Source: a virus
DNA: 46,401 nt
Virus record (IMG/VR): IMGVR_UViG_3300005549_000004
Location: 1-46,401 of that record
Strand: one strand, 5' to 3'
The notes under the pieces are model-generated. The model was not told the origin of the DNA. It did no database searches and saw only the letters and a list, made by a program, of their open reading frames with translations. Each line of letters opens with the position of its first letter. Position 1 is the first letter of the stretch. This document shows positions 7,244 to 46,401 of the stretch, in pieces. Position numbers and translations under genes: made by a program.

Positions 7244-7252
7244 GGAGATGCC

Positions 7253-8277: not shown

Positions 8278-9107
8278 TGGCGCAGATCAGTCTCGTCCCG
8301 GGCCAGTTTGCGAGCGCCAACTCGACGGCCGCGGTGGCGACGCTGGCCGTGGCGTTCCCCGCGCAGACCAAGGTGGGCAGCCTCCTTTGCGCGCATGGCG
8401 GGGCGACGGCCGCGATCACGAGCATCACCGACGACGGCTTAAACACGTGGACCAACGACATCGCCGTCAACGATCCGAACGTCGCCACCGACGAGGCGTG
8501 GCACACCTACAACGCCAAGGTCTGCCAGACCGTCACGATCCACTTCGCCGTGACGGGGGCGTTCGCCTTCGTCGCCGTGTCGGAGTACAGGGGGGCGAAC
8601 CGCGCCTACGACCCGAAGATCCTCGTGAGCGACCAGTCGGACGGCGGGACCGCCGCCAACTCGACCTGCCCCGACGTGACGCCCGATCGGCCGGGGTGCC
8701 TGACCTTCGTCATCAACCGCGACACGGGCGCCGGCGCCGCGACGTGGAACAGCCCCTTCACGCTGCTCAGCCAGTCGGGTCAGGCCGACTGCGACGGCTA
8801 CTACGTGCAGGGACAAGCGGCCGCCATCCACGCCGACGCCAACAACACCGGCGACACGCACTGGCACGTCGGGATGGTGACGTTCATCCCCGAGCCCGAC
8901 GCGACGCTGGCGATGCCCAAAACGATGCGCGGGCCCCGGGTGCGCTTCAAGATGCCGCTGGCGCGGTTCACGCCCGACGCCTTACCCGTCGTTACCTTCG
9001 ACGGCGCGTTGATGGCCGCGATTACCCCTCCGTGGCCGAGCCCGGTCGCGGAAACCCCGTCGGTGGTGGCCTCGGGAATGGCGCCGCCGAATGACCTCAT
9101 TCCCTAG
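8277..9107 (+). CDS. Beta-rich virion protein, 276 aa
   Basis: Starting at the ATG of a TGATG coupling site, this protein has a Ser/Thr/Ala-rich beta pattern with the motif FVAVSEYRGANRAYDP near residue 100. That pattern is common in phage and secreted proteins of jelly-roll type. The last 60 residues are Pro-rich with little predicted structure. It is probably a surface or tail-associated structural protein. Confidence 0.6.
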   Translation: MAQISLVPGQFASANSTAAVATLAVAFPAQTKVGSLLCAHGGATAAITSITDDGLNTWTNDIAVNDPNVATDEAWHTYNAKVCQTVTIHFAVTGAFAFVAVSEYRGANRAYDPKILVSDQSDGGTAANSTCPDVTPDRPGCLTFVINRDTGAGAATWNSPFTLLSQSGQADCDGYYVQGQAAAIHADANNTGDTHWHVGMVTFIPEPDATLAMPKTMRGPRVRFKMPLARFTPDALPVVTFDGALMAAITPPWPSPVAETPSVVASGMAPPNDLIP

Positions 9108-9121
9108 CGGAGCGCACTGAC

Positions 9122-9565
9122 ATGGCCAGCTTTCGCGGCGTCCACCGGACCCCGGCGGGGTCCAACCTGACGATCCTCGCGCTCGAATCCAACGCGTCGG
9201 TCGTGGGGAAGCTCGACCAGCTCATCATCGGCTCGGACTCGACTCCGGCCGACATCGCCACCCGGCTCGACGTGCTGCGGCATACCACCGCTGGCGCGGC
9301 GGGCACGGCCGTCGTCGAGAAGCCGGACGACCCCCAGAGCTCGGCCCCCGCGTGCAACCTGCGCGGCGGCACCATGACCGAGCCCACCTACGAGGCGGAC
9401 TTCCTCCTCGAGATCCCGCTGAACCAGCGCGCCACCTACACGTGGAACGCGAACCCGGGCAAGGAGTTGCGCACGGTGGTCGGGACGGCCAACGGCCTCG
9501 GGCTGCGCTCGGTTAGCTCCGGCGCCACGCCGAACATCGGTGCGACGTTCGGCTGGAGCGAGTAG
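9122..9565 (+). CDS. Hypothetical virion protein, 147 aa
   Basis: It starts at ATG 9122, 15 bases after the previous gene. The N-terminal half contains a helix with NASVVGKLDQLIIGSDSTP, and the C-terminal half is beta-rich (TYTWNANPGKELRTVVG). It resembles the small structural proteins found between portal and capsid genes, but no family could be named. Confidence 0.55.
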   Translation: MASFRGVHRTPAGSNLTILALESNASVVGKLDQLIIGSDSTPADIATRLDVLRHTTAGAAGTAVVEKPDDPQSSAPACNLRGGTMTEPTYEADFLLEIPLNQRATYTWNANPGKELRTVVGTANGLGLRSVSSGATPNIGATFGWSE

Positions 9566-9568
9566 GCC

Positions 9569-9814
9569 GTGGTGTTCCTCCCGAAGCTGCTCGGCACCGG
9601 GGGCAGCTTCCGCATTGACCGACCCGAGGGGCCGCCCATCGAAGGCGACACGATGCAGTGCGTGCACTGCATGAAGCACTGGACGGTGGTCCCCGGATCG
9701 GGTCGGCAGCGCGGCTGGTGCCTCAAGTGCGGCGGCCCGCTCTGTGGGGCGGAGAAGTGCATGAAGGAGTGCGTGCCGTTCGAGAAGAAGGTCTACGGGG
9801 AGGCGCCCTGGTAG
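9569..9814 (+). CDS. Small zinc-ribbon-like virion-operon protein, 81 aa
   Basis: The C-terminal half carries closely spaced Cys pairs: CVHC, then CLKC, then CGAEKC and C near VPFEKK. These could bind one or two zinc ions. The pattern HW-VVPGSG-RG-C--CGGPLCG recurs in short proteins of late operons in environmental podoviruses. The GTG at 9569 is used, with a second GTG directly after it. The function is not known. Confidence 0.65.
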   Translation: MVFLPKLLGTGGSFRIDRPEGPPIEGDTMQCVHCMKHWTVVPGSGRQRGWCLKCGGPLCGAEKCMKECVPFEKKVYGEAPW

Positions 9815-9817
9815 GCT

Positions 9818-11122
9818 ATGCCGAGTAGGTACCACTACCAGCCGCTGACGGGCCCGGTCTGGCGGGAGCCCGTCGCGTCCCGCCTGTCGTGGCTGCCGGA
9901 AGGCAATCCCACGCCCACGCCCGTCGTGCGGGCGCGGACCAGCGACCTGGTGGCGCCGTTCCTTGCCGCGCTCACCGTGGCGGCCAGCCTCGCGTGGCTG
10001 CCCACGGGACAGGCGCGGGCGCAGGCGCTGCCCGTCCCGCGCGGCGACCAGAGCGTCACGGTCTTCCCGCTGGCGGCGCCGTTCGACGCCAGTCAGTTCC
10101 CGCAGGTCAGCGCGGTGCGCCTCACCCCGGTCGAGCGCCGGTGGCCCAGCACGCTCGTCGAGCCCCTCCTCGACAACGTGGTGGTGGGTGTCGACGTTAC
10201 CGACGTGCGGCCGCAGGCGCCGCCGGTCCGCATCCCGCAGGACCTCACCGTCCTGCCGCCGTTCCAGGCGCCGACCTTCGACGCGCGGCTCTTCCCCTGG
10301 CCGGGCACCGTCCCGCCCGCGGCAGCTCCGGCTCGACCGCGCGCCGACCTCACGGTGGTGCCGCCCTTCCAGCCACCGACGTTCGACCCGAAGCAGTTCC
10401 CGGTGGTGGTGCTGTCGCCCGTGTTCCCGGCGGAGCGGCGCCAGCCCAGCACTCTGGTCGAGCCGCTGCTCGACAACGTCGTCATCGGGGTGGACGTCAC
10501 GGATGTGCCGCCCGCGCGGCCGCTCCCGCGCGCGGCGCCGGCGTGGACCGTGGTGTCGCCGTTGCCGCCGGTGCCATACGACCCAGCGCGGATGGAGTGG
10601 CTGCCTGCGGGTGCGCCACCAGCGCCGCGTCAGCTCCCGGGGCCGTACACGCAGGTGGTGTTCGTGGGCGACTACGGCAGTCCACCGCCACCCCCGACCC
10701 CCCCACCGCCGACCGAAGCGGGTCCCGGGGGTGGGAAGGTTCGCAAGCGGTCGCCCAAGGCTCCCGCGATCCGTGTGCGCGGCGTCATCCGCGACCCGCT
10801 GCTACGGCTGGAGCCAGACCAACGGGAGGAGGCGCCACCTGCGCCTACGGCTGAGGGGCCGAGACCGGCAGAGCCGCAACCTGGCGCCAGCTCCGCCAGT
10901 CAAGCGAGCGTTCCGGCGCCCGCCCAGGCCGCGCCGGCGGCCCCGAAGCCCAAGCGCCAACGCCGACCGAAGCTGCCGCCGCTGGCCCCGGTGGTGCCGC
11001 CGCTCGACTGGATGCCCGTGTTCCGCACGGCGGAGCCAGAGCCACCCGCACCGCCCGTGGTCACCGACGAGGACGACTTCCTAACGCTGCTCATCATGCG
11101 ACGCGCGCATCGATTGACGTGA
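9818..11122 (+). CDS. Proline-rich protein with internal duplication, 434 aa
   Basis: This low-complexity, Pro/Ala/Val-rich protein sits just before the scaffold. Residues from about 38 to 70 form a hydrophobic stretch ending in AQA, which could act as a membrane segment or signal-like region. Two units of about 43 residues resemble each other closely. Each has a PSTLVEPLLDNVV core, and both are preceded by FD--QFP. The C-terminus is basic and Pro-rich (KPKRQRRPKLPPL). A virion or ejected role is possible, but this is inference. Such composition also makes homology searches unreliable. Confidence 0.55.
   Translation: MPSRYHYQPLTGPVWREPVASRLSWLPEGNPTPTPVVRARTSDLVAPFLAALTVAASLAWLPTGQARAQALPVPRGDQSVTVFPLAAPFDASQFPQVSAVRLTPVERRWPSTLVEPLLDNVVVGVDVTDVRPQAPPVRIPQDLTVLPPFQAPTFDARLFPWPGTVPPAAAPARPRADLTVVPPFQPPTFDPKQFPVVVLSPVFPAERRQPSTLVEPLLDNVVIGVDVTDVPPARPLPRAAPAWTVVSPLPPVPYDPARMEWLPAGAPPAPRQLPGPYTQVVFVGDYGSPPPPPTPPPPTEAGPGGGKVRKRSPKAPAIRVRGVIRDPLLRLEPDQREEAPPAPTAEGPRPAEPQPGASSASQASVPAPAQAAPAAPKPKRQRRPKLPPLAPVVPPLDWMPVFRTAEPEPPAPPVVTDEDDFLTLLIMRRAHRLT
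10078..10507 (+). repeat. Imperfect direct repeat inside the proline-rich gene
   Basis: Units at about 10078-10207 and 10379-10506 encode near-identical peptides around PSTLVEPLLDNVV-GVDVTDV, with about 300 bp between equivalent positions. Synonymous differences are frequent, so the duplication is old or the protein sequence is under selection. Confidence 0.7.
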
Positions 11123-11150
11123 ACCCTTTCGCTCGAACGGAGAGAGATAT

Positions 11151-12374
11151 ATGTTAGACCCAGACGTTGCTGCACCTGGCGCTGCGGCTCCAGCCTCACC
11201 GACCCCCGCGATCGACGGCCCCATCGTCGACTGGGACGCGACGGACGAGGACCTGGAGCAGCCCGAAGGCACTCCTCCGGCGCAGCCCCCGGCGGCCCCT
11301 GCCCCGGCAGTTCCGGCGGCCCCTGGCGCTCCTGCGTCAGCCCAGCCTCCGACGCCCCCGGCAGCCCAGCCCCCGACCCCTGCCGCGACGCCCGCTGGTG
11401 CTGGTGCGGAACCCGCTCCCGCTGGGACGGCGCCCACACCTCCCACCAGCGCTGCTGCCGCCCCGTCGGTCTGGGAGTTCCAGGCCGACGGCCAGACCGT
11501 GGTCGTCGAAGGCTCGGTCCGGCACCCCGATGGCAGCGTCACGATCCCCGCCAGCATGGTCCCCCACCTCGAGACGCTCGGCGCCGAAGGAGCTGCACAT
11601 CGCGGCTCCTGGCGTCGGGAGCAGGAGGGGTACCAGGACCGTATCGCGACGCTGGAGCGGGAGGTCGCCAACAAGGTCAACGACCCGGAGTTGCTCCGGG
11701 CCCGGGCCTACAATAAGCAGCTCCTGGACCTGCTCGAGAAGGGGCCCGACGCGGTGGCAGCGTGGCTGGACAACTACCAGCAAAACTTCCCCGTGTTCCA
11801 GGCCAAGGCCGAAGAAGCGATCCTGCGGGCCCAGCTGGCCGAGCGGGATGCGTGGCTCAACGCGGCCGAGGAGGAGCGCCTGTCCGACGAGATCGCCCCC
11901 AAGATCTCGCAGACGATCGAGGGCGCAGTCACGCGGCTCGCGGCGCAGCACCCGGGCGTCAACGCGGCCCAGCTGCACCAGCGGATCCTGGCGCGGCACC
12001 TGGACCAGGTGGCCTACGAAGTGCCCGCGGCGGAACGGCCGCGCGGGCTGGCCGAAGGTGAAGTGCTATTAGGGCGAGGGCCGAAAGGCGAGCTCTACAT
12101 CGTGAACGAGGGCCTGATCGCGGATGAGTTCGCGTACCAGGCCAGCCTATTGAAGGGCAGCGCGGCCGCGGCGCAAGCCGCCGTGGCCCACAACGCCGCG
12201 ATCAGTGCGCCGCCACCGGTGGTGGCGCCGCCAGTGCCGGTGACCGGACCGGCGCCCGGGGCGGGCGAAGCCAAGATGCCCGAGTTCCCGAACACGCCGG
12301 AAGGCAAGCAGCAGATGCAGGACTGGATTGACTCTGGGGACTGGCGCAAGACCGTGTTCCCCAGCACCCGATAA
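11151..12374 (+). CDS. Scaffolding protein candidate, 407 aa
   Basis: It lies directly upstream of the capsid gene, the usual place for scaffold. The first 105 residues are Pro/Ala-rich and disordered. Residues of about 150-285 are charged and helical (AHRGSWRREQEGYQDRIA and onward), and a short conserved-looking tail ends QDWIDSGDWRKTVFP. This disorder-helix-tail organisation suits a scaffold that assembles capsid protein and leaves the head. The ATG at 11151 follows a purine-rich ribosome site. The call rests on position and composition. Confidence 0.7.
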   Translation: MLDPDVAAPGAAAPASPTPAIDGPIVDWDATDEDLEQPEGTPPAQPPAAPAPAVPAAPGAPASAQPPTPPAAQPPTPAATPAGAGAEPAPAGTAPTPPTSAAAAPSVWEFQADGQTVVVEGSVRHPDGSVTIPASMVPHLETLGAEGAAHRGSWRREQEGYQDRIATLEREVANKVNDPELLRARAYNKQLLDLLEKGPDAVAAWLDNYQQNFPVFQAKAEEAILRAQLAERDAWLNAAEEERLSDEIAPKISQTIEGAVTRLAAQHPGVNAAQLHQRILARHLDQVAYEVPAAERPRGLAEGEVLLGRGPKGELYIVNEGLIADEFAYQASLLKGSAAAAQAAVAHNAAISAPPPVVAPPVPVTGPAPGAGEAKMPEFPNTPEGKQQMQDWIDSGDWRKTVFPSTR

Positions 12375-31187: not shown

Positions 31188-31419
31188 CCTTCACGCCCGG
31201 ACCTCCGCAGACGTAGCCCATCGGGACTGCCGACCACGCCTCCGGATGCTGCTCGGGAGGTAGCGGACAGGGGTCGACTTGCGTCGGAAAGAGGGCGCAG
31301 CCGGCCGAGGCGATCCACAGCGCCAGCGCCGCAGCGCCGACGAGCAACTTCAGAATCACCGCCCAGCGGATCACGGTCAGGGTGCGCTCACTGACATGGG
31401 GCCACTTGACGGGGCTCAC
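31174..31419 (-). CDS. Small lipoprotein-like protein, 81 aa
   Basis: The GTG at 31419 overlaps the upstream stop (GTGA). A hydrophobic segment (residues of about 20-40) ends in IASAGC, an imperfect lipobox. Three more Cys-containing or Pro-rich segments follow (PCPLPPEQ, YVCGGPG). A lipoprotein or single-pass membrane protein is likely. It overlaps the end of the late operon by 14 bp on the other strand and could work with lysis, but this is speculative. Confidence 0.5.
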   Translation of the reverse strand: MSPVKWPHVSERTLTVIRWAVILKLLVGAAALALWIASAGCALFPTQVDPCPLPPEQHPEAWSAVPMGYVCGGPGVKATEP

Positions 31420-32153
31420 GGTTTCTCTCCCGTGGGGGCCGACTCCACCGCAGGCCGTTCCGTCCACCGACGGCCATCCAGCACGGCGCTCGCGCCGCCC
31501 TGCTTGTCGGGCCAGCCCCCGAGTTGCTTCAGGAAGAACTTGGCGCCCCGTGCGGTGCATTGATCGGCCAACGCCCGCAGCCACGAGACTTCGGTGGCGC
31601 GGAAGCCCGGCCCGGATTCACCGCCGCCAATCACCCACGACACATGACGCGGGCCGAGATACTCCCCGATACTGAGCGGCCCGAGGAGCGGCTCGGCGCT
31701 GCAAAACCGCACCGTCGCGGGCAGCGTGTTCAGGATGCGGAGCCGGTGCGCGAATCGCTGATTCTCGACGGACACCCCCAGCCACACGTTGGGCCACGGG
31801 TCACCGAAGGCCGCCCACGGCAACCGACCGTCGGCGCGCTCGATGCGCTTCGTGAGAATCAAGTAGGTATGCTGCGGCGTCTGACGGATCACGTCCCACG
31901 CTTCGTCGCGCCACGGGTCAGCGGCTTCGTGGAACCAGTCCGACCAGGAGCAGGTGAACACGACGCGGGGCTCGCGCCACTTGAGCGGGGCGTGGAAGGT
32001 TGTCTTGGAGCGCGTCACGACTTCCGGGTCGCGCCCGTAGCGAATCTGCTCGCGGAACATGTAGCAATGCGCGCACCCCGGCGAGACTTTGGTACAGCCG
32101 CGCCACGGATTCCACGTTGCATCCGTCCACTCGATCCCGGAACGTTCACCCAT
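31416..32153 (-). CDS. Gp37/Gp68-family protein (DUF5131-type), 245 aa
   Basis: The N-terminal signature IEWTDATWNPWRGC, then SPGCAHCYM marks this phage family, with cysteines at 20, 27 and 30. The Cys cluster resembles an iron-sulphur site but is not the standard radical-SAM spacing. Later blocks (FTCSWSDWFHEAAD, ILTKRIER, VWLGVSVENQ, FCSAEPLLG and IGGGESGPG) are also typical. The start is ATG 32153. Its biochemical role is not established. It is part of the leftward operon, whose genes are mostly auxiliary. Confidence 0.85.
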   Translation of the reverse strand: MGERSGIEWTDATWNPWRGCTKVSPGCAHCYMFREQIRYGRDPEVVTRSKTTFHAPLKWREPRVVFTCSWSDWFHEAADPWRDEAWDVIRQTPQHTYLILTKRIERADGRLPWAAFGDPWPNVWLGVSVENQRFAHRLRILNTLPATVRFCSAEPLLGPLSIGEYLGPRHVSWVIGGGESGPGFRATEVSWLRALADQCTARGAKFFLKQLGGWPDKQGGASAVLDGRRWTERPAVESAPTGEKP

Positions 32154-32469
32154 TGGACGGTGTCTCTCCCGTGGGGACAGAGCCCCGCCGCTGTTGTTCG
32201 CGCAGTCGGTCAGCGTTTGGCGCTTCCCTGAATCTGTCGGCGAATCTCTCGGCGGCGTCCTGTTCGGCGCGCACATCGCGCTGCACGTAGAGCAGCCCCG
32301 CCTCGTCCACGACGCCCTTGTCGTAGAGCAGTTGCACGAACGCGAGCCGCTCGGTCGGTGGCAATACCGTGCCCCGCGCCGCGAGCAATCTGCGGAGCCA
32401 TTCCACGGTGAGCGCCGCTGACGCCAACGCCTCGGTGGCGATTTTCTCGACACGTCCGGGATCGTTCAT
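32146..32469 (-). CDS. Hypothetical helical protein, 107 aa
   Basis: The start is ATG 32469, overlapping the upstream stop in ATGA. The protein is helical and charged (TEALASAALTVEWLRRLLAA, then DAAERFADRFRE). It overlaps the Gp37/Gp68 gene by 8 bases. No family is recognised. Confidence 0.6.
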   Translation of the reverse strand: MNDPGRVEKIATEALASAALTVEWLRRLLAARGTVLPPTERLAFVQLLYDKGVVDEAGLLYVQRDVRAEQDAAERFADRFREAPNADRLREQQRRGSVPTGETPSNG

Positions 32470-33470
32470 TGGGCTTCCCCGCTCGACGGGGAGGCGGCCC
32501 CTTCCTCGGCTCGCCAAACTTCGAGCGCCGCCGAGTTGCCCCGCAAGGCGCTTTCCAGTAACTGGACGCGGGCACACGCCCAGACCCATGCGTCACGCAT
32601 CGGCATCACGTAGCCGCTCGACGGATTGACGACGGTCGGCTCTGGGCTCGACGGGGAGGCGGCCCCAAACTGAACTTTGTACGCGGCGCGAAGTATCCAG
32701 CGCACATCCTCGCGGGCGTCGTCCTCGTCTTGCGCGGTGGATGCCATCAGACGGCGGTGCGCGGCTTCGATTGCCGCTTCCGAAGGCTCTGGGCTTCCGG
32801 CGCTGCCCGCCCCCACATGGATGGGAGGCAGCGGCGTATCCAGTCGTTCGCCCTCCCGGCGCGTATCTCGACTGGCCTCGCTTCCGCCGCTGGCCAATAG
32901 CCGTCCATGCCAACCGCAATGTAGACACAGGTCGTCGCGCACGCCCACCGCCATGTGACGGCAGTTCGGGCACTCGAAGCCGTCGCGCTCAAACGGCTCG
33001 GCTGGGGCGCTGCCCGCCTGAGACGAGCCCCGCAGCAAGGGCCACGGCTGCGTCGCATTGCTGGGTTGCGCTTTCCACGGCCCTGCTGGGGGCGGGCTCT
33101 CCACCCGCACCAAGCTCAAGAGAAATGCAACGTCCTCCGGGGCGCTGGCGATGAACTGCGCGTTCGCCTCGCGGGTCGGCCCCGTCATCCCACGGCACAC
33201 GGTGCACGCATCGACAAGTTTGCCATCGGCGTCGTACTGCGTATCCGGGTGCTTGGGCGCGTATACGCCATCCTCGACCAGCGACGGGTCGCGCCACCAC
33301 GCCCACGGCCCCGGCGTCGCTGCTTTCAGACGGGCTTCGATTTCCGCCAACCGGCTCGGGGGCGGCGCGTCGCGGCCTTCGGGCTCCCCACTCCAATCGC
33401 CCACGGTATCCGTGCTGTCGCAGCCGAGCGCCAGCAGGGCAGCAAGCATTACGTAGCGGGGGGCGCTCAC
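32466..33470 (-). CDS. Lipoprotein-like protein with Ea22-like segment and zinc ribbon, 334 aa
   Basis: The first 17 residues (ending MLAALLALGC) look like a lipoprotein signal with the Cys at about 17. Residues of about 40-130 (AEIEARLKAATPGPWAWW, then ANAQFIASAPEDVAFLLSLV) resemble the ead/Ea22-type phage segment. A zinc-ribbon-like CPNC-HMAVGV-DDLCLHCG lies near 170. The rest is low-complexity Ser/Pro. The signal on an otherwise cytoplasm-like protein may be chance. Confidence 0.6.
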   Translation of the reverse strand: MSAPRYVMLAALLALGCDSTDTVGDWSGEPEGRDAPPPSRLAEIEARLKAATPGPWAWWRDPSLVEDGVYAPKHPDTQYDADGKLVDACTVCRGMTGPTREANAQFIASAPEDVAFLLSLVRVESPPPAGPWKAQPSNATQPWPLLRGSSQAGSAPAEPFERDGFECPNCRHMAVGVRDDLCLHCGWHGRLLASGGSEASRDTRREGERLDTPLPPIHVGAGSAGSPEPSEAAIEAAHRRLMASTAQDEDDAREDVRWILRAAYKVQFGAASPSSPEPTVVNPSSGYVMPMRDAWVWACARVQLLESALRGNSAALEVWRAEEGAASPSSGEAQ

Positions 33471-33763
33471 CGGGAGACCCCCACGCGAGTTTTCCAGAAC
33501 GCCCGGAGCGCGGCCCGCAACTTGTCATCGGTGTGCGCGGGGCGTCCATCGGGCTGCACGAGGTCGTAGAACGCCTCGACTGCATCGAGTTCCGCGTCGC
33601 GGCATCCAGCTACACACAGCAAGCCCGCCTCGGCCAGCACTTCGGGGCCGCCGCAAATCGCGCACGTCGTTTTCTGGTCGCCCACAAAATCCTCCCGGTC
33701 GTCGTCAGGTAATTCGCTCGCCGCCATCCACGAAGCGTGGCTGTCTCCGCTCATTGGGCTCAT
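33467..33763 (-). CDS. Small Cys-rich hypothetical protein, 98 aa
   Basis: A CAICGG pair and a later CVAGC pair can make one metal site. The C-terminal half is helical. It starts at ATG 33763 with ATGA overlap. A second in-frame ATG lies three codons on. Function is unknown. Confidence 0.6.
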   Translation of the reverse strand: MSPMSGDSHASWMAASELPDDDREDFVGDQKTTCAICGGPEVLAEAGLLCVAGCRDAELDAVEAFYDLVQPDGRPAHTDDKLRAALRAFWKTRVGVSR

Positions 33764-34248
33764 TTTGGGCTCCCCTCTCCTTGGGCCGCGTCTAGCTCGG
33801 CCAACACAGTAGCCCGCAGCTTACAGCGGGTGCAGGAATAGGTCGCGTGTGGCGCGTGAGCATCTGCCAGCGCTTCCCTCGCACGGCGCAGGAGCGCCCG
33901 CAGATGGACTATCGTTGCGTTCGCCTCAGCCCAATCAGTACCGAGTTGCTTTCCTGCTTCGATGAGCGCCGTGTTATCGCGCTCCATCCGTTCCAGCGCT
34001 TCTCGGTCGGCTTGAAGCTCGCGCCGTAATGTGTCTTCACGCTCACTCGTAGAGCGCATCAGCATTTCGTTAGTATCGCAGACTTCATTGAGCCGCGTTA
34101 TCTCGTCTCGGTCGGCTTGCCACGCGGCCAGCACTCGCTCGACAAGTTGGTGAGTGCTTTGGTGAATCGCCGGGTAGCGAACCTGCTTAAGTGCGTCCCA
34201 TTCTTCCCGCATCTGTTGGGGGGTGAGCCGTTCGCCGGGAGCCGTCAT
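33760..34248 (-). CDS. Coiled-coil protein with C-terminal Cys pair, 162 aa
   Basis: I chose ATG 34248, in ATGA overlap with the upstream stop. Residues of about 40-125 are strongly helical and heptad-like (REDTLRRELQADREALERME). A CTRCK pair lies near the end. The longer upstream extension is not coding-like. It is probably an auxiliary phage protein of unknown role. Confidence 0.6.
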   Translation of the reverse strand: MTAPGERLTPQQMREEWDALKQVRYPAIHQSTHQLVERVLAAWQADRDEITRLNEVCDTNEMLMRSTSEREDTLRRELQADREALERMERDNTALIEAGKQLGTDWAEANATIVHLRALLRRAREALADAHAPHATYSCTRCKLRATVLAELDAAQGEGSPK

Positions 34249-34490
34249 AGCCGGTAACTCCGTTTGTTGAGATAGAATCGCCCCGCTGCGTCCCGGAATA
34301 CCTCGAACGCCATCAGGTGCCGGAGCCCGCACCCGCAGCACTCGTTGTCGATCGACGCCCGGAGACTCTGGTCGGGTAGATAGCGCACCAATTGCACGGT
34401 GGTCGCTTCGCCATCGTGATTCACTTGGCGCCCTTTTTCCCTCTTGGTGCGCTCCGCACTCGGGGGCCACAGAATCTTGCGGGGCTTCAT
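34245..34490 (-). CDS. Small Cys-rich protein, 81 aa
   Basis: The NECCGCGLRHLMAFEV segment provides a possible metal site with closely spaced cysteines, and the C-terminus is beta-like (GRFYLNKRSYRL). It starts at ATG 34490, about 20 bases after the nuclease gene. Short zinc-type proteins of this sort are common in phage early operons. The role is unknown. Confidence 0.6.
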   Translation of the reverse strand: MKPRKILWPPSAERTKREKGRQVNHDGEATTVQLVRYLPDQSLRASIDNECCGCGLRHLMAFEVFRDAAGRFYLNKRSYRL

Positions 34491-34509
34491 CGGGGTTCGC
34501 CGGGAGCCG

Positions 34510-35640
34510 TCACGGGGTCACCGCGCCGGTGTAGGGGTCGGTGCCGACAGCCGCCAAGTGCTCGGCGGCCAGCGTCGTGAGGGCGCCGCGGTCCACGTCG
34601 GGCGGCAGGGGGCGCTCGCCGAAGAACTGCGCCACCACCTCGTCCAGGGTCTGGCGGACGCGCGCGCGCGCCTCGGGTGTGGGCGCTTGGGCGGCGGGCC
34701 GGCTCCACGACAGGTGGTAGTTCAGGGCCCGGCGCTTGTAGCTCCGGATGGCTTCGTGGTCCAGGCCCGCCCGGTGCGTCTCCCGCGACAGGTTGACCAC
34801 CACCTGCCGTACCACGGCGCCGTCCACGTCGGCGGCGAGCTCCGCCAGCAGCGTGTTGAGCTCCTCGGCGGTCATGTCGGCCGCGTCGATTTTCAGCAGA
34901 TCCTCGAAGCGCCGCGGGGGCTCGATGGCCATGAAGGCTGGGTCGTACCCGAGCTCCACCAGTAGCCACCCCTTACCGGGGACGCGGGTGTCCAGCTGGC
35001 GCGCGCGCTCTGACCACGGGTCCGTGGACGTGTAGTCGAGCGAGCCGGCGTACCACGCTCTGGTGCCCACTTCGGCGCACACGTGGTAGTGCCCCAGCGC
35101 GACGTACTGCCACGGGTGGCCCTCCAGCACCGTGGGGTCGACGTTGGCCCCTGGCACCTGGCGCACCTCGCCGTGCAGCAACAGCACGTCGCCGGGCGGG
35201 CCCGTGTACGCCTTCAGCTGCCGCGCCCGCGCCTGCGGCACGCACAGGACCGTCAGGCCCGACGGCAGCGGCACCAGCGCGATGTCGCGTTCGACCGTGT
35301 GCACCCCCAGCGCGCGGTACAGGCTCAGGATGGTGCCCGTGCTGCTGGTGCGCGGGGTGTCGTGGTCGCCGGCGATGGCCACCACGTCGACCTTGGGGAG
35401 CGCGGTGCGCAACCGCTGGAGCTCGGCGAACAGCGCCACGATAGCGCGGTTGTCGGGCCGGACGGAGTGGAAGACGTCGCCCGCCAGCAGCACCACGTCG
35501 GGGGCCTGCGCAATCACGCCGTCGAAGGCGCGACGCACCGCCAGCTGCACGTCGGCCTCCCGCTGATTCTGCCCCTGGGGGGTCTCGCGCGTGTAGGCGC
35601 GGTAGCCGAGGTGGAGGTCGGCCAGGTGGGCGATCCTCAC
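34510..35640 (-). CDS. SbcD/Mre11-like metallophosphoesterase nuclease, 376 aa
   Basis: A calcineurin-like nuclease fold is clear from its ordered motifs: D8-x-H10 (LADLHLGY), GD at 54-55 (LLAGDVFH), GDHD at 91-94, then LHGEV and LGHYHV. The family normally reads GNHD. Here the Asn metal ligand is Asp92. In E. coli SbcD and in Mre11 it partners an ATPase (SbcC/Rad50), which I do not see here. It likely processes DNA ends for recombination or replication. GTG 35640 overlaps the upstream stop (GTGA). The residues past 260 form a capping region. Confidence 0.85.
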   Translation of the reverse strand: MRIAHLADLHLGYRAYTRETPQGQNQREADVQLAVRRAFDGVIAQAPDVVLLAGDVFHSVRPDNRAIVALFAELQRLRTALPKVDVVAIAGDHDTPRTSSTGTILSLYRALGVHTVERDIALVPLPSGLTVLCVPQARARQLKAYTGPPGDVLLLHGEVRQVPGANVDPTVLEGHPWQYVALGHYHVCAEVGTRAWYAGSLDYTSTDPWSERARQLDTRVPGKGWLLVELGYDPAFMAIEPPRRFEDLLKIDAADMTAEELNTLLAELAADVDGAVVRQVVVNLSRETHRAGLDHEAIRSYKRRALNYHLSWSRPAAQAPTPEARARVRQTLDEVVAQFFGERPLPPDVDRGALTTLAAEHLAAVGTDPYTGAVTP

Positions 35641-35939
35641 CGGCGCCCCCAGCTGCCCACCACCTGTGCGCGCACGTCGGCCCGAGAGCGGAACAGCCGC
35701 TCGCTCAAGGCCCACGCGGCGTACTCCATGAACACGTCGTTGTGCGCGCGCGCCCCGTCGTTCAGGGCCTGACTCAGGCGCCAGCGCCACTCGGGCTTCG
35801 GGAACGCCCGGATAGCCGCGTCGGTCGCCTGGACCCACGGGATCAGGCCATAGAGCGGATCGTGCGGGTCGTTGAGGGGGGGCGCGGTGCGCGCCCCCCG
35901 CTCGACGTACGACCGCGTACTGCCCAGCGGCCGGCTCAC
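35637..35939 (-). CDS. Hypothetical protein, 100 aa
   Basis: The start is GTG 35939, overlapping the stop of the upstream gene, and the stop overlaps the nuclease start. The middle (WRWRLSQALNDGARAHND, then FMEYAAWALSERLF) is helical and aromatic. It may be an accessory of the nuclease because the two are translationally coupled. No family is recognised. Confidence 0.6.
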   Translation of the reverse strand: MSRPLGSTRSYVERGARTAPPLNDPHDPLYGLIPWVQATDAAIRAFPKPEWRWRLSQALNDGARAHNDVFMEYAAWALSERLFRSRADVRAQVVGSWGRR

Positions 35940-36424
35940 GCCTTGACCGCGGCTTCACGCACGCGCACCGTGCGGTGCATCGCCACGCGCGGCGGCTTGC
36001 CGTGGCCGTTGCCCGAGCCCGACTCGCCCCGCTGGATCCCCATGCGGTTCGCCGGGCTGATCGGGCTGAGCCGGTAGTCCTTGCCGGCCGCGAAGTCGTG
36101 GTGGCGGTCAAAGCTGACGATCTCCCGTCCCACCCCGCCCGACGTCTTGTACCGGGTGGCGATGGTGCCCTTGATGAGCCACGAGATGCCGAGGCCGATC
36201 AAGGCGCCGTCGGCCAAGCCGTCGCGGTTGCAGGCGCGGGCCAGCGCGCACTGCCGCGGATCCTTTGGCTTGGCGCCGTCGGCGTCCTCGTCGGTGACGG
36301 TGATGAGCACGGCCTTGGTCGCGTCGCGCACTTCCTTCACCTGCGGGAAGATGGCCTGGATCATGCGCAGCGCGCCGACGCCACGGCCAATGCGGGTGGG
36401 CTTCTTCTGCTTGGGCTTGTTCAC
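35936..36424 (-). CDS. Hypothetical phage protein, 162 aa
   Basis: The N-terminus is basic (MNKPKQKKPTRIGRGVGALR). A mixed alpha/beta core (ITVTDEDADGAKPKDPRQCA and DGALIGLGISWLIKG) and a basic end (RVREAAVKA) follow. The C-terminal half has Arg/Gly-rich sequence typical of nucleic-acid contact. No catalytic motif is recognised. The start is GTG 36424, overlapping the upstream stop. Confidence 0.6.
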   Translation of the reverse strand: MNKPKQKKPTRIGRGVGALRMIQAIFPQVKEVRDATKAVLITVTDEDADGAKPKDPRQCALARACNRDGLADGALIGLGISWLIKGTIATRYKTSGGVGREIVSFDRHHDFAAGKDYRLSPISPANRMGIQRGESGSGNGHGKPPRVAMHRTVRVREAAVKA

Positions 36425-36639
36425 GGGGTCCTCGCTTTCGCCCCTGAGGGGCGGCGATGAGTGGGGTTGACTTCGGTGACATACTTGATCCCTGCGAGGA
36501 GGCGCTCCTGCACGCGGTGCCCCCGTTCAACGACAACGCCAACGCCGCCCGCCTCGAGCATGCCGAGCCCGAGTAGGTGCACGACAGCCTTGGCCTCTTC
36601 CAGCCGCAGCGACAGGTCCACGCGGCGGCGCTTAGGCAC
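36421..36639 (-). CDS. Small hypothetical protein, 72 aa
   Basis: A compact protein (LRLEEAKAVVHLLGLGMLEA) with a basic Pro-rich C-terminus. GTG 36639 overlaps the upstream stop by 8 bases. Function is unknown. Confidence 0.5.
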   Translation of the reverse strand: MPKRRRVDLSLRLEEAKAVVHLLGLGMLEAGGVGVVVERGHRVQERLLAGIKYVTEVNPTHRRPSGAKARTP

Positions 36640-36835
36640 GCAGCCGCCGCTTCGCGGCTTCGCACATGCCGCAGATGACGTCGTAGGCAGGCGGGTCCTT
36701 CTTGGGCCAGACGTACACGCTCTCGTCCAGCGGCCGGCCGCACAGCGTGGTGCGGGCGTTGCTGGTCACGTGGAACACGGGCGGCTTCTTGCGCCAGGCC
36801 ACGTAGGTGGTGAGCGCCGCGGGGCGGGGCTTCAC
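36632..36835 (-). CDS. Small Cys-containing protein, 67 aa
   Basis: It starts at GTG 36835, overlapping the upstream stop by 4 bases. Pattern: a basic start, FHVTSNARTTLCGRPL, then DVICGMCEAA, giving three cysteines (L-CGR plus C--C). This layout, a His-containing strand, a CGR turn, then a CxxC, recurs in short phage proteins, and a second copy may be the gene at 38513. The role is unknown. Confidence 0.55.
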   Translation of the reverse strand: MKPRPAALTTYVAWRKKPPVFHVTSNARTTLCGRPLDESVYVWPKKDPPAYDVICGMCEAAKRRLRA

Positions 36836-37041
36836 TGGGCCAACTCGTAGACTTCGCCGCCGACGTCGACCAACCGACCGAGCTCGACCAGCGCCCGACA
36901 AGCGCGGCGGGCTTGCTCCAGGCTGCGCTCGCCCTCCATGTCGTTGGCGATTTCCTCGACGGACACCGCCGCGGAGCCGAGCCGTCTCCGTTCGCGGACA
37001 ATGCGCATCACAAGCCCTTTCGTGCTAGTGAAGGATGCCAT
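36832..37041 (-). CDS. Small winged-helix-like protein, 69 aa
   Basis: The sequence has the look of a winged helix: helix (LVMRIVRERRRLGS), helix-turn-helix-like VSVEEIANDMEGERSLEQAR, then ALVELGRLVDVGGEVYEL as the wing. It may regulate the operon or bind DNA. ATG 37041 lies after a leader hairpin. The call is from pattern only. Confidence 0.55.
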   Translation of the reverse strand: MASFTSTKGLVMRIVRERRRLGSAAVSVEEIANDMEGERSLEQARRACRALVELGRLVDVGGEVYELAQ

Positions 37042-37058
37042 GGTGGTGCTCCTGTTCT

Positions 37059-37132
37059 GGCCTCCGAGAGGCCGTTGCGGGCCGGCGTTGGGACCGGCCA
37101 CGGGGTTTACGGCGGGTCAACCGCGCCCGCCG
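37059..37132 (-). other. Hairpin-rich leader between the DUF932 gene and the next gene
   Basis: Three GC-rich hairpins lie in 99 noncoding bases: 37059-37073 (GGCCTC/GAGGCC, 3-nt loop), 37080-37099 (GGCCGG/CCGGCC) and 37110-37132 (CGGCGGG/CCCGCCG). On the minus strand the first lies 18 bases upstream of the ATG at 37041, before an aggag site. The last could end transcription from DUF932. No T-run is seen. Confidence 0.5.
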
Positions 37133-37140
37133 CCCTCACC

Positions 37141-38184
37141 CTACTCGCGGTCGGGCTGCGCCACGTCCAGCAGCGACTCGAACACGCGGTCCTTGATGTC
37201 GTACAACCGCCCACCCGGCATCAGCTGCCGCACCCGACTCGACCGGCACGGGAACACCTCGGGGTCGTGGTCCACCGCCTCGGCGACGCCGTTGTACGCT
37301 TCCCACGCCGAGCCATCGCCGACATGGCCCTTGCCGAGCGTCCACAGGCCGAACAGCGCCTCGCGCTTCTCGGTGTAGCGCTGCACGGTGCTGTCGGCCA
37401 TGGGGCTCGCGGCGTCGAAGTCGGCGCGCTGGCGCGGGTCGCGCTGCACGACGTCCATCACGCGCCGCTGCCACGTGGACTCGTCCAGCTTCACGGTGCG
37501 GAGCGCCGCGTACCGGGCGAGGAAGTCCTGCGTGCGCTGCACGATGCCGCCCAGCACCAGCTTAAAGCAGTCCTCCAGGCGCTGACTCGCGTCACCCCGG
37601 TGCTGCACCGACGCCTGCGTCCGGAAGTCGCCGTCCTCCACCATCCCGAGCGTGTTCGCGCAGACGACGCGCACGTCCGTCTCGGTGACCGAGGCGTTGG
37701 CGCGCCCCGTGTGGTTGGTCCGAACCAACAGGTACTTGGCGATGCCGGCGCTGACGAGGCCCGCCTCCACCTCGCTGGGGAAGGTCGCCGGGTTGACCTG
37801 CGCCAGCACCCACGCGTCGGCACCGTCACGCAGCACACCGCCGCACTCCAGCCGCAGGTCGCCGCTCTCCACCAGCGGCTGCACCAAGCCGAATGCCTGC
37901 TCGTTCTGGATGACGGTGTAGTCGGCCCCGACGACGCCGAGCTCCGCGTTGCGGTCGGGCCGGAAGGTGACCGCCCCCGTGGTGCACTCGTCGTAGCCGC
38001 CGTCGTTGTTGCGGCGGTAGACGGGCAGCTTCTCGACGGGATACAGCAGGTGGCCGGCGGCGAGCGCTTCGGCGAACGACGTGGTGCGCGGAAGGGCGAT
38101 GCCCTCGCCGTGCCAGGCGGTGAGCTGCTCACCCAGTTCGAAGAAGTCGGCGCGGCCGTTGGTGAAGCTGAGTTCGTGCGACAT
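37141..38184 (-). CDS. DUF932 family protein, 347 aa
   Basis: This family of unknown function is common in phages and plasmids. The order VGADYTVIQNEQAFGLVQPL (residues of about 85-105), then WVLAQVNPATF, then KYLLVRTNHTG is characteristic, and the length is normal. It is first in the leftward operon, read from the divergent promoter region at 38238, with a hairpin and gaaaggg site before ATG 38184. It is often found near recombination or replication genes, which agrees with the SbcD-like nuclease downstream. Confidence 0.85.
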   Translation of the reverse strand: MSHELSFTNGRADFFELGEQLTAWHGEGIALPRTTSFAEALAAGHLLYPVEKLPVYRRNNDGGYDECTTGAVTFRPDRNAELGVVGADYTVIQNEQAFGLVQPLVESGDLRLECGGVLRDGADAWVLAQVNPATFPSEVEAGLVSAGIAKYLLVRTNHTGRANASVTETDVRVVCANTLGMVEDGDFRTQASVQHRGDASQRLEDCFKLVLGGIVQRTQDFLARYAALRTVKLDESTWQRRVMDVVQRDPRQRADFDAASPMADSTVQRYTEKREALFGLWTLGKGHVGDGSAWEAYNGVAEAVDHDPEVFPCRSSRVRQLMPGGRLYDIKDRVFESLLDVAQPDRE

Positions 38185-42017: not shown

Positions 42018-42193
42018 GCGGGTCCCTGGAAGTGCTCACGAAGCACGGCGAACTGGTGCTGGTGCCGCTGACGGGTGAACCGCGCGCGGATGCGGTGCTG
42101 CGTCGACTGGCGGCGAAAGGCGGCCGCGTGACAGAGCTCTACCCGGATGACCCCGAGGCCGATGCACGGACAGCCCTACAGGAGGGTGCGTGA
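42014..42193 (+). CDS. Small hypothetical protein, 59 aa
   Basis: ATG 42014 in ATGA overlap. The sequence (GELVLVPLTGEPRADAVLRR, then GGRVTELYPDDP) looks like a small alpha/beta protein. It ends in GTGA overlap with the RusA gene, so the three are probably one transcript. Function is unknown. Confidence 0.55.
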   Translation: MSGSLEVLTKHGELVLVPLTGEPRADAVLRRLAAKGGRVTELYPDDPEADARTALQEGA

Positions 42194-42630
42194 CCAGCGA
42201 ACAGGTAGCGGCGTGGGGTAGTCCCGCGATCGGGACGGCCCGGGTGCCCTTCAGCCTGGTGATTCCCCAGCCGCCCTCGGTCAACGAGTACTGGAAGCCG
42301 TGGCGCTCCCGCATGGTGATGACGCCCGCCGGCCGCGCGTTCCGCAAGACGGTCTGGGCCATGGCGACGGCGCAAGGCTACGGCCTGCGGCACGAAGCGC
42401 TCGCTGGGGACGTCATTGTGTACCTGGCCTGGCACCGCAAGAACCGCAACGCCGGCGACATCGACAACCGTGTCAAGCCTGTGCTCGACGCGCTGCAAGG
42501 TGTGGCCTACAGCAACGACAAGCAGGTGGCGGCGCTGGTGGTCTGGCGCGTGGACGGGATGGGCCTGGCGCGGGTCGAGGTGCGCGTCGAGCCGTGGATG
42601 GCCAACCGCGTGCCGGTGGTGACGTCATGA
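42190..42630 (+). CDS. rusA: RusA-family Holliday-junction resolvase, 146 aa
   Basis: RusA resolves four-way junctions with two conserved Asp ligands and a Lys. Here they read D90-x-D92 and K96 in GDIDNRVKPVLDAL, and the N-terminal PQPPSVNEYWKP and KNRNAGDIDN blocks match the family. The length (146 aa) is in the usual range. It probably debranches phage recombination or replication intermediates before packaging. GTG 42190 overlaps the previous stop. Confidence is high because the motif is complete. Confidence 0.9.
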   Translation: MTSEQVAAWGSPAIGTARVPFSLVIPQPPSVNEYWKPWRSRMVMTPAGRAFRKTVWAMATAQGYGLRHEALAGDVIVYLAWHRKNRNAGDIDNRVKPVLDALQGVAYSNDKQVAALVVWRVDGMGLARVEVRVEPWMANRVPVVTS

Positions 42631-43421
42631 CGCACCAGATGGTGGTCTGCATCCCGACGCGCGGCCGACCCGACGCGCAGATCACCTGGGCGCAGCTGCC
42701 GTGGGAGTGGAAGGGGCGGACCTACTTCGTGTGCGACGCGGATCGGCGCCTCGAAGTCCAGTCCCTCGCGAAGCGCGGCGCCGTGCTGGTGTACCCCGGT
42801 GGTCCTGGCATCGGCCCGAAGCGCCAGTGGACCCTGGAGCACGCCCCGTCGCCCTACGTGTGCCTGCTGGATGACGACTTGCACTTCGCGGCCCGGCGCG
42901 ACGGCCGACTGCTGAAGGCCACCGGAGACGAGATCGCCGCGGGGCTGTCCCGGCTCGAGTCCTGGCTGCGCGACCTGCACCTGGTGGCCGTTGGGCTGTC
43001 GCCGCGGGCCGGCAACAACCGCGAGGAAGGCCCCTACGCGGAGAACACCCGCCTCTGCAACGCCTACGCCTTCGACCGCGACGTGGCCTTGTCGACCGGG
43101 GCGCGGTTCGATAGATTGTGGGGCAGCATGGAGGACTTCGACTTCACGCTGCAGCTGCTGCGCGCGGGGTACCCCAACCGCGTCGACTACCTGCTCGCCG
43201 TGGGCCAGGATGACCCGAACGCCGTCGGCGGCTGCACCGAGTACCTCACGCCCGCCGTGCAGAAGGACGCCGCGCTCAAGCTCGCGGAGTTGCACCCCGG
43301 GCTGGTCACGGTCAAAGACAAGGTCACGAAGGGTGGCTGGCACGGCTTCACCGAACGCACCGACGTGGAGGTCGCATGGAAGAAAGCCCTGCGCACTCGG
43401 CACCAGACCAGCTTGCTCTAG
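42627..43421 (+). CDS. TET-associated-type glycosyltransferase, 264 aa
   Basis: A GT-A-like fold is suggested by VVCIPTRGRPDAQITWAQLP at the start, YVCLLDDDLHFAAR with an acidic triad (residues of about 82-84), and GSMEDFDFTLQLLRAGYP near residue 170. The match is to phage glycosyltransferases linked to TET/JBP dioxygenases, and the dioxygenase gene lies immediately downstream. It would transfer a sugar to an oxidised base in DNA. The sugar cannot be deduced. ATG 42627 overlaps the RusA stop, and the end overlaps the next gene by 46 bases. Confidence 0.75.
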   Translation: MTHQMVVCIPTRGRPDAQITWAQLPWEWKGRTYFVCDADRRLEVQSLAKRGAVLVYPGGPGIGPKRQWTLEHAPSPYVCLLDDDLHFAARRDGRLLKATGDEIAAGLSRLESWLRDLHLVAVGLSPRAGNNREEGPYAENTRLCNAYAFDRDVALSTGARFDRLWGSMEDFDFTLQLLRAGYPNRVDYLLAVGQDDPNAVGGCTEYLTPAVQKDAALKLAELHPGLVTVKDKVTKGGWHGFTERTDVEVAWKKALRTRHQTSLL

Positions 43422-43771
43422 ACGCGGCCGAGGAATCGGCGGCGGCCCGCAGCGCCTACGTCATCCCGGGCGAGCCGCTGGTCGAGCCCGAGGCGCCGCT
43501 CACCCCGGACCAGACCACCCTGTTCGACCTGGACGGGCTGACCGTCATTCCCGCGGATCAGGCCATCCTGGACGCCTATGCCGCAGCGGGCGAGACGCCC
43601 GGCGCCCGGAAAGACACGTACGACCAGACCACCATCCGGCAAATCGTGCTGTACTACGACAGCACGGAGTACCCGGAGATTCTCGCGCTCCTCGAGAAGG
43701 CCATGCGCCGCACCAACCGCAAGACGCACACCGAAGCCGTCACCGAACTGCTGCGCGGAGCGGACGCATGA
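43376..43771 (+). CDS. Linker protein of the hypermodification module, 131 aa
   Basis: Unknown function. The first half is Ala/Glu-rich and probably flexible. The second half has YDQTTIRQIVLYYDSTEYPE, then helical ILALLEKAMRRTNRK and EAVTELLRG. This gene sits between the glycosyltransferase and the dioxygenase, overlapping the first by 46 bases and the second by 4. It may be a partner or specificity factor, but that is inference. Confidence 0.55.
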   Translation: MEESPAHSAPDQLALDAAEESAAARSAYVIPGEPLVEPEAPLTPDQTTLFDLDGLTVIPADQAILDAYAAAGETPGARKDTYDQTTIRQIVLYYDSTEYPEILALLEKAMRRTNRKTHTEAVTELLRGADA

Positions 43772-44598
43772 CCCTCGACCTCCCCGTCACCAAGGTCACG
43801 CGCCGGCGCCTGAAGCCGTCCGACTATCGGTTCCGTCACGCCGCTGAAGCCGACTGCGCCGAACACGTCACCAGCCCCGGCATCTTCACCGAGGCCGGGC
43901 GCGTCATGCTGGTCACCGTCGACCTCAAGGCCCTGGGCGTCGACCTGTCGCCGCTGGTCACCCTGCTGCACGGGGTGCGCTTCGACGAGCATCGCCGCAC
44001 GTCGGGCATGCCGTCGACCAGCCGCGTGTTCGGCTTCGAGCCCCGGCGCACGCTGCGCAAGGACTTCTGCGGCACCACCAGCCTGAGCGTGGAACACCCG
44101 GACGCCCACAAGGCCCTGGTCGATGCGGCTGGCGTCTGCGAGAGCGCGTACCAGCTGACCAACCCCAGCCTGTACAGCCAGCACGTCGAGGTGACGCGCA
44201 ATCGCGTGCTCGCCCAGTGGCACCTGCGCAACGGCGTGTTCACGTCGGGCATCGTGAACAAGAACAATCCCCTGCCCTATCACTACGACACGGGCAACTT
44301 CGCCTCCGTCTGGTCCGCCATGCTGGTGTTCAAGGGCCCGGGCCTCACGGGCGGGCACCTCGCCGTCCCGGAGTACGATCGCTGCTTCACGCTCCCGGAC
44401 CACACGCTGTTCTGCTTCGACGGTCAAGGGCTCTTGCATGGGGTCACGCCTATCGTGTGTCCGCCCGACTCGTATCGCTACAGCGTGGTGTTCTACAGCC
44501 TCAAAATGATGTGGGCGTGCCTTCCTCCCCAGCAGGAATTGGAACGGATTCGGCGCGTCAAGACTGACCGGGAACGTCGGCGCGGCGGTCTGCGGTGA
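43768..44598 (+). CDS. TET/JBP-family 2-oxoglutarate/Fe(II) dioxygenase, 276 aa
   Basis: The C-terminal half carries the double-stranded beta-helix dioxygenase signature: H172-x-D174 (LPYHYDTGNF), GGHLAVPEYD near 195, H224 in LLHGVTP, and R237 in SYRYSVVFY as the 2-oxoglutarate anchor. The full pattern matches the phage TET/JBP group, which oxidises methyl groups of 5-methylcytosine or thymine in DNA. The start is ATG 43768, in ATGA overlap with the linker gene. The N-terminal half is of unknown function. Substrate (5mC or T) is not determined. Confidence 0.85.
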   Translation: MTLDLPVTKVTRRRLKPSDYRFRHAAEADCAEHVTSPGIFTEAGRVMLVTVDLKALGVDLSPLVTLLHGVRFDEHRRTSGMPSTSRVFGFEPRRTLRKDFCGTTSLSVEHPDAHKALVDAAGVCESAYQLTNPSLYSQHVEVTRNRVLAQWHLRNGVFTSGIVNKNNPLPYHYDTGNFASVWSAMLVFKGPGLTGGHLAVPEYDRCFTLPDHTLFCFDGQGLLHGVTPIVCPPDSYRYSVVFYSLKMMWACLPPQQELERIRRVKTDRERRRGGLR

Positions 44599-45080
44599 CG
44601 GGCCTCTACCAGATTCGACACGTGGCGTCCGGCCGTCGCTACATTGGCAGCGCCGTCAACGTGCGCCTGCGCCTCAGCTACCACGTGTGGCTGCTGCGCC
44701 GCGGTGGGGACTCGATTCACCTTAGCCGGGCGTGGCGCAAGTACGGCGAAGCGGCCTTCGCGTTGGAGCCGCTGCTGGTGTGCGCCCCCGCCGACCTACT
44801 GTGGTACGAGCAACGTGCCATCGACTACTACGCCGCCCGCAAGCTGCTGCTCAACGTCAGCCGCACCGCAGGTTCGCCGCTTGGCTATCGCCACTCACCA
44901 GAGCGTCGTGCGAAAATCGCCGCCGGGCACCGAGGCCTGAAGCACGCAGCCGAGACCAAGGCAAAGATCGGCGACGCGAACCGACGTCGCGTGTGGACGC
45001 CTGAAGCACGCGCCAAGGTGGGAGCGGCTGCCAAGGGGCGGTTGCCACGCGACGCCGCTGGAAGGTTCGCCAAGCCGTGA
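44595..45080 (+). CDS. GIY-YIG endonuclease with NUMOD-type repeats, 161 aa
   Basis: The N-terminal GIY-YIG-type block is GLYQIRHV, then RYIGSAVNV, with R and Y/H in LRLSYH and a catalytic-type E in WYEQRAID. From about residue 98 follow NUMOD-type repeats (SPLGYRHSPERRAKI, then EARAKVGAAAKG), typical of homing endonucleases that bind a specific DNA site. The GTG overlaps the dioxygenase stop. It may be a mobile free-standing homing enzyme or a genuine phage nuclease. Confidence 0.8.
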   Translation: MTGLYQIRHVASGRRYIGSAVNVRLRLSYHVWLLRRGGDSIHLSRAWRKYGEAAFALEPLLVCAPADLLWYEQRAIDYYAARKLLLNVSRTAGSPLGYRHSPERRAKIAAGHRGLKHAAETKAKIGDANRRRVWTPEARAKVGAAAKGRLPRDAAGRFAKP

Positions 45081-46021: not shown

Positions 46022-46401
46022 CCGGCACGGCGCTCGTCGCGTGGGCGCCGCAGCCCGGCCCGCAGCAAGCCCTCGTCAGCTGTCCCGTCGAGGACGTGTT
46101 CTACGGGGGCGCCCGCGGTGGCGGCAAGACTGACGCCCTCTTAGGCGACGTGCTGGTGCGCGCCGACGAGCACGGGGCGCACTTCCGCGGCATCCTGTTC
46201 CGGCGCACCTACCTGGAGCTAGAGGAAGTGATCCGCCGCTCTCAGGAGCTGTTCCCCAAGCTCGGCTGGGCTTACAACTCGACCACCCACACGTGGACCC
46301 ACCGCGCGAGCGGTGCCACCCTGCTGCTGCGCTACCTCGACAACGACGCCGACGCCGACAACTACCAGGGCCACCAGTACACCTGGATGGGCTTCGACGA
46401 G
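46018..46401 (+). CDS. terL: Terminase large subunit, N-terminal part (joins 1-1266)
   Basis: The 5' part of the packaging ATPase, starting at GTG 46018. The Walker A motif GGARGGGKT spans residues 30-38. It runs to the window edge inside the repeated 120 bases, then continues from position 1. The full protein is about 509 aa. The start overlaps the previous stop by 4 bases (GTGA). Confidence 0.95.
   Translation, partial: MTGTALVAWAPQPGPQQALVSCPVEDVFYGGARGGGKTDALLGDVLVRADEHGAHFRGILFRRTYLELEEVIRRSQELFPKLGWAYNSTTHTWTHRASGATLLLRYLDNDADADNYQGHQYTWMGFDE
46282..46401. repeat. Direct terminal repeat, right copy
   Basis: Identical to positions 1-120. With the reading frame continuing through it, this is best read as the overlap left by a circular assembly. 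Confidence 0.95.

Follow-up and report, generated by a model that had tools for sequence, protein, structure and literature searches.

The DNA studied here, IMGVR_UViG_3300005549_000004, belongs to a bacterial virus and is 46,401 bases long; this whole stretch is called the window below. On its plus strand, a run of tightly overlapping genes occupies positions 42190-45080. It contains the following features:

42190..42630, + strand, RusA-like resolvase; overlaps the glycosyltransferase start by 4 bases
42627..43421, + strand, TAGT glycosyltransferase (GT; PF20691), 264 aa; found by Pfam and phrog_842, DDD motif at residues 82-84
43376..43771, + strand, 131-aa partner protein; residues about 81-130 correspond to the C-terminal domain of ParB-like TET partners
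43768..44598, + strand, predicted TET/JBP 2OG-Fe(II) dioxygenase (PF12851), 276 aa; H172, D174, H224 and R237 intact, Asn177
44595..45080, + strand, GIY-YIG/NUMOD3 homing endonuclease-like gene; overlaps the TET stop by 4 bases

The GT gene overlaps the 131-aa gene by 46 bases, and the 131-aa gene overlaps the TET gene by 4. A GGAGG sequence lies 7 bases before the ATG of the 131-aa gene. The first-pass annotation had described a GT-like gene, a 131-aa gene and a dioxygenase as one overlapping unit, and this description holds: all three ORFs and their overlaps are present, and their coding signature is that of the window. Because there are overlaps on both sides of this unit, the run starts at the RusA-like gene (42190) and extends beyond 44598. 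The RusA-like gene is likely to be on the same transcript as the GT and is probably outside the modification chemistry. The GIY-YIG/NUMOD3 gene is probably a passenger. Given its 4-base overlap with the TET gene, its translation may be linked to that of the cassette, whose spread it may aid.

Bases 1-120 are identical to bases 46282-46401, forming a 120-bp terminal repeat, and the terminase frame continues across the join of the two ends of the 46,401-base record. For these two reasons the record probably represents a complete genome with a unit length of 46,281 bp, and the absence of a gene from it carries weight. Elsewhere in the window, a minus-strand block at 31416-38184 contains DUF5131, SbcD-like nuclease and DUF932 genes, several ORFs that have no family match, and a 25-nt repeat present in near-identical form at 31418 and 32157.

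The dioxygenase at 43768-44598 matches PF12851 (Tet_JBP) with 35.3-36.6 bits against a Pfam cut-off of 34.9, which is marginal by score. Its identity is secured all the same by its structure match and its invariant residues. The predicted structure has a mean pLDDT of 96. Its best PDB matches are CcTet (E 6e-12), CMD1, NgTet1 and TET2 (E 6e-12 to 5e-8), and the top 26 PDB matches all belong to one of these four proteins. H172, D174, H224 and R237, which form the HxD...H iron triad and the 2-oxoglutarate Arg and which had been picked out from the sequence earlier, are invariant in 38 aligned TET relatives. By sequence and model, the protein is a predicted enzyme of the TET/JBP dioxygenase family, and the profile and structure comparisons thus bear out the earlier reading of this gene. 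The base-contact position, residue 177, is Asn, as in the 5mC-specific TET2. This residue was considered as a decider of the target base and was rejected, since 5mC is a substrate of TET2, which has Asn there, and also of NgTet1 and CMD1, which have Asp. Asn177 is therefore permissive, and either base is possible. Many phage TETs carry the database label 'queuine tRNA-ribosyltransferase', and 'DNA methylase' is the label of a ParB_N protein; these are likely misannotations (examples are NC_022061 gp2, JF974286 CPAG_00033 and phrog_6059).

The GT at 42627-43421 matches PF20691 (TAGT) with an E value of 9.6e-13 and 49 bits against a Pfam cut-off of 27.5, so the GT-like gene of the first reading can now be placed in the TAGT family. 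It also matches phrog_842 (E 2e-39). The order of GT, 131-aa gene and TET, adjoining and overlapping in the studied genome, is kept in the close relative L010, in which the three proteins are 56%, 43% and 59% identical, respectively.

The 131-aa gene appeared to be unique when tblastn against phages returned nothing, but this idea was rejected when profile searches found its domain throughout. Most TET operons, of the GT and the ADDT/kinase type alike, encode a ParB-like protein a short distance upstream, and the last 50 residues of the 131-aa protein match the C-terminal domain of these proteins. This partner domain is present in 74 of the 80 TET-selected loci. By sequence comparison, the 131-aa protein carries the C-terminal domain of the ParB-like TET partner as a stand-alone copy. 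The domain occurs without the ParB part in the studied genome, L010 and L002, and the ParB N-terminal domain (PF02195) is absent from the studied genome at E <= 1. The structure model shows, with high confidence, one extended strand and then two helices. A weak profile match to VapB (E 0.0035) falls below the cut-off of that family, and comparison of the model with the PDB gave nothing significant, the weak matches including the ribbon-helix-helix protein NikR (probability 0.14-0.18). The modelled domain is thus strand-helix-helix and perhaps ribbon-helix-helix, and the protein may have a role in DNA binding or TET recruitment. In L003, an in-frame stop at 5401-5403 separates the ParB-like part from the TET-partner domain; it is either a sequencing error or a real split, and a real split of this kind may be a possible origin of stand-alone partner domains.

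A profile scan of IMG/VR with the studied TET found 549 relatives, of which 80 were kept. Local profiles for TAGT, ADDT, the P-loop kinase, the thymidylate synthase (TS)-type hydroxymethylase, the FAD lyase-like protein and the 131-aa domain were mapped around each TET. Among 91 TET loci, a GT is found in 53, ADDT and/or kinase in 24, neither in 14 and both in none. In a tree built from 54 TETs, those with a GT and those with ADDT/kinase are interleaved, with six changes of state. Such exclusion and interleaving are expected of alternative decorations of one intermediate. ADDT (amino acid:DNA transferase) functions in 5hmU-derived thymidine hypermodification. According to Pfam, PF18724 (ADDT) and/or PF18751 (kinase) are present in L002 (kinase), L003, Rhodococcus phage Tonitrus and Gordonia phage CloverMinnie. 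The known thymidine hypermodification route leads from 5hmdU through a 5hmdU kinase to amine transfer (PMC6449724). The cultured and complete genomes of Tonitrus and CloverMinnie encode TET, ADDT and kinase and have neither PF00145 (C5-methyltransferase) nor PF00303 (TS-type hydroxymethylase), so that no source of 5hmU is visible in them other than the action of TET on thymine. PF00303 was found in none of 48 TET records. After L010, the TETs nearest to the studied one include the ADDT/kinase types L018, L002 and L015, along with L012, which has a C5-methyltransferase nearby. By gene context, the TET family would mostly feed 5hmU, though not necessarily uniformly.

In the 327-kb record L016 (IMGVR_UViG_3300028800_000001), one cluster at 3900-11300 contains two TET genes, each with its own ParB-type partner, together with genes for ADDT, a kinase and an FAD lyase-like protein. 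In Arthrobacter phage Prairie (MW601223), a ParB-like gene, TET, TAGT and a PIG-L deacetylase are close together (L172:3607-7107). The PIG-L gene suggests that an N-acetylated amino sugar would be put on the hydroxymethyl base and then deacetylated.

The relatives of the GT have a history of their own. Of 80 GT-profile loci, 73 have a TS-type (PF00303-type) hydroxymethylase, 5 have a TET, 2 have neither and none has both. Hydroxymethylase and TET, never found together beside the GT, therefore replace each other as its partner. All but one of the 73 GT-linked hydroxymethylases are closest, among five references, to that of AN14, a relative of phage M6; they are 37-45% identical to it in the cases printed, and they typically have an almost identical active-site motif, RSND[LI]IWGAYGANAVH. 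The T4 dCMP hydroxymethylase (RSNDVVFGFRNDYAW) is far from them and has Asp179, a key determinant of dCMP over dUMP (PMC6400193). At the corresponding position the GT-linked enzymes have Ala (ungapped alignment) or Asn (HMMER), and Asp in neither alignment. The DNA of phage M6 carries 5hmU-derived thymidine (PMC6449724). In sequence, then, the GT-linked hydroxymethylases resemble those of thymidine-modifying phages.

The studied GT detects all 78 hydroxymethylase-linked GTs, with a best score of 164 and a median of 142 bits. Among the TET-linked GTs, 36 of 57 are detectable and the median is 34 bits. It is thus much nearer to the hydroxymethylase-linked GTs than to most TET-linked ones, L010 and L166-L169 being the exceptions. 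The GT tree favours placement with the hydroxymethylase-linked GTs; an AU test did not exclude a grouping with the TET-linked GTs (p 0.30), and the similarity scores were added to the tree because of this alternative. As judged by bit score, the studied GT is a predicted member of the hydroxymethylase-linked TAGT subfamily. The pairing of this subfamily with M6-type hydroxymethylases suggests 5hmU as the GT acceptor. The cassette in the studied genome and in L010 looks like a hybrid of a TET-side and a GT-side history. The earlier reading of a TET/JBP enzyme together with a GT stands; what it had not noticed is that the GT comes from the hydroxymethylase-linked (phage M6 type) subfamily and that the 131-aa gene encodes a conserved partner domain.

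Other loci carry this GT in further settings. L166-L169 combine a GT that is also from the hydroxymethylase-linked side with a very divergent TET, which has an HTDKGD motif and Asp as its base-contact residue; this may be an independent hybrid. L091 and L150 have this GT without hydroxymethylase or TET in the sequence stretch covered. Of the two GT copies in L091, one is closer to the studied GT than any other except that of L010.

The history of the TET and the separate history of the GT both point the same way, and 5hmU is therefore favoured. These two independent lines of gene context, drawn from over a hundred related viruses, favour thymine rather than 5mC as the TET substrate. A route from thymine through 5hmU to glycosyl-5hmU is inferred because of the partner swaps on the TET side and the hydroxymethylase pairing on the GT side. 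The first-pass annotation had left three sources of the substrate side by side, namely host-made 5mC, an unrecognised methyltransferase and direct oxidation of thymine. The comparative evidence favours the third, and the first two are rated lower.

The studied genome has neither PF00145, searched in six frames at E <= 1, nor PF00303, and Pfam scans of its called genes gave no C5-methyltransferase-like match. A hidden C5-methyltransferase was rejected on the strength of these empty searches. PF18724 ADDT and PF18751 kinase are also absent, by Pfam scans of called genes and local profile search. With the genome probably complete, the earlier statement that neither a C5-methyltransferase nor a TS-type hydroxymethylase is encoded is confirmed. 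The lack of a methyltransferase had also been presented as an oddity, and this did not survive the survey. PF00145 is above the cut-off in 6 of 86 distinct TET-bearing records (L012, L016, L032, L035, L051 and L052), a share that may in truth be higher as many TET-bearing contigs are fragments, and it is found in none of 10 cultured TET phage genomes, which are described as complete. TET without C5-methyltransferase is thus the rule among the relatives. Two apparent pairs of TET and C5-methyltransferase, in Nonlabens phage P12024L and cyanophage MED4-184 (annotated 'DNA methyltransferase' and 'DNA methylase'), were rejected, as Pfam identifies an N6/N4 methyltransferase and a ParB_N domain.

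These counts bear on the strongest alternative, in which the TET oxidises host-made 5mC and the GT glycosylates 5hmC at host sites. It would fit a phage that has no C5-methyltransferase, and phage TETs active on 5mC are on record: those with C5-methyltransferase partners are reported, as cited in PMC11404850 and PMC12730594, to oxidise 5mC. Downstream of the fairly close TET of L012 (about 49% identical) lies a C5-methyltransferase, and the same is true, or nearly so, of L032, L035, L051 and L052; in some phages, then, 5mC may be the substrate of this TET family. Asn at residue 177 is also shared with TET2. Such a pathway, however, would depend on host methylation and would mark few sites, the relatives of both TET and GT pair with 5hmU genes, and PF00145 is missing from all 10 cultured TET phages. 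We consider it unlikely. Still less probable is a cassette whose product is no glycosylated DNA base, either as the GT has another acceptor or as the TET product stays 5hmU, or a cassette that is not expressed. The gene overlap could indeed reflect compact packing only, but the order of the three genes is kept in L010, the catalytic residues are intact, and this GT family almost always adjoins a source of hydroxymethyl-pyrimidine. Least credible, and very improbable, is an unrecognised phage methyltransferase that makes 5mC for TET and GT to act on as in the published cytosine route: several genes of the studied genome have no family match, but C5-methyltransferases are strongly conserved, the PF00145 search was empty and none was found in the close relative L010/L011.

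The reading we prefer, and hold to be reasonably probable, is a compact hypermodification cassette that would convert thymine to 5hmU and then to glycosyl-5hmU, with the 131-aa protein as an accessory and DNA protection as the outcome. The cassette would be compact and translationally coupled. Once the phage DNA has been replicated, the TET would oxidise the methyl group of its thymines to 5hmU. With a host nucleotide sugar as donor, the GT would glycosylate the new hydroxyl, and a base J-like glycosyl-5hmU would result. The 131-aa protein may bring TET and/or GT to the DNA, perhaps as a ribbon-helix-helix dimer. The likely purpose would be to shield phage DNA from host nucleases.

Several known systems resemble this scheme. 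Kinetoplastid base J is made by the thymidine hydroxylases JBP1/JBP2 and the glucosyltransferase JGT, and the two-step logic proposed here is the same, with 5hmU in DNA followed by a sugar. The phage cassette differs in that it is a phage operon with a TAGT-family GT and an extra 131-aa partner. If the thymine assignment holds, it would work like base J. Burke et al. 2021, in PNAS, reportedly described cytosine hypermodification by a phage C5-methyltransferase, TET and GT. There, TET/JBP and GT are likewise encoded together in phage, whereas the studied genome and most of its relatives have no C5-methyltransferase and 5hmU is what their partner genes suggest. Thymidine hypermodification by hydroxymethylase or TET with P-loop kinase and ADDT (phages M6, ViI and phiW-14) shares the proposed 5hmU intermediate, and its TET version (Tonitrus, CloverMinnie and L003) shares the TET family and the partner domain. 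Here, in contrast, a GT replaces kinase and ADDT, and no amino acid-type decoration is predicted. Phages with hydroxymethylase and TAGT (ctUhy936, LuckyBarnes and about 70 IMG/VR loci) have the same GT subfamily downstream of a hydroxymethyl-pyrimidine source. In these phages a TS-like enzyme presumably adds the hydroxymethyl group at the nucleotide stage, while here TET would make it by oxidising the polymer. Prairie, a cultured phage with neither C5-methyltransferase nor hydroxymethylase, has a TAGT-family gene immediately after TET, but its GT is only distantly similar to the studied one (TAGT just under the cut-off) and the extra deacetylase suggests an amino sugar.

Phage TET with TAGT is already known as a kind, and Pfam names the GT family after its association with TET. 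Iyer et al. 2013 are said to have predicted phage TET/JBP enzymes computationally. As of 2019, thymine oxidation by phage TETs and glycosylated 5hmU in phages had apparently not been shown (PMC6449724), and a later report is possible. A wider proposal is that the locus represents a phage base J pathway. TET/JBP would hydroxylate thymine in DNA, TAGT would glycosylate the 5hmU, and a dedicated partner domain would assist. The cassette would have arisen by joining the GT of hydroxymethylase/5hmU phages to a thymine-oxidising TET, with polymer oxidation replacing hydroxymethylation at the nucleotide level. We give this proposal an even chance. The partner swaps, in which GT or ADDT/kinase accompanies TET and TET or M6-type hydroxymethylase accompanies GT, yield a sharply defined prediction that can be put to a direct test in cultured phages, among them Arthrobacter phage Prairie and Gordonia phage CloverMinnie. 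If the prediction is true, a thymine-specific dioxygenase and its matching GT would be a useful tool, and the existence of such a pair in phages would bear on the origin of kinetoplastid base J.
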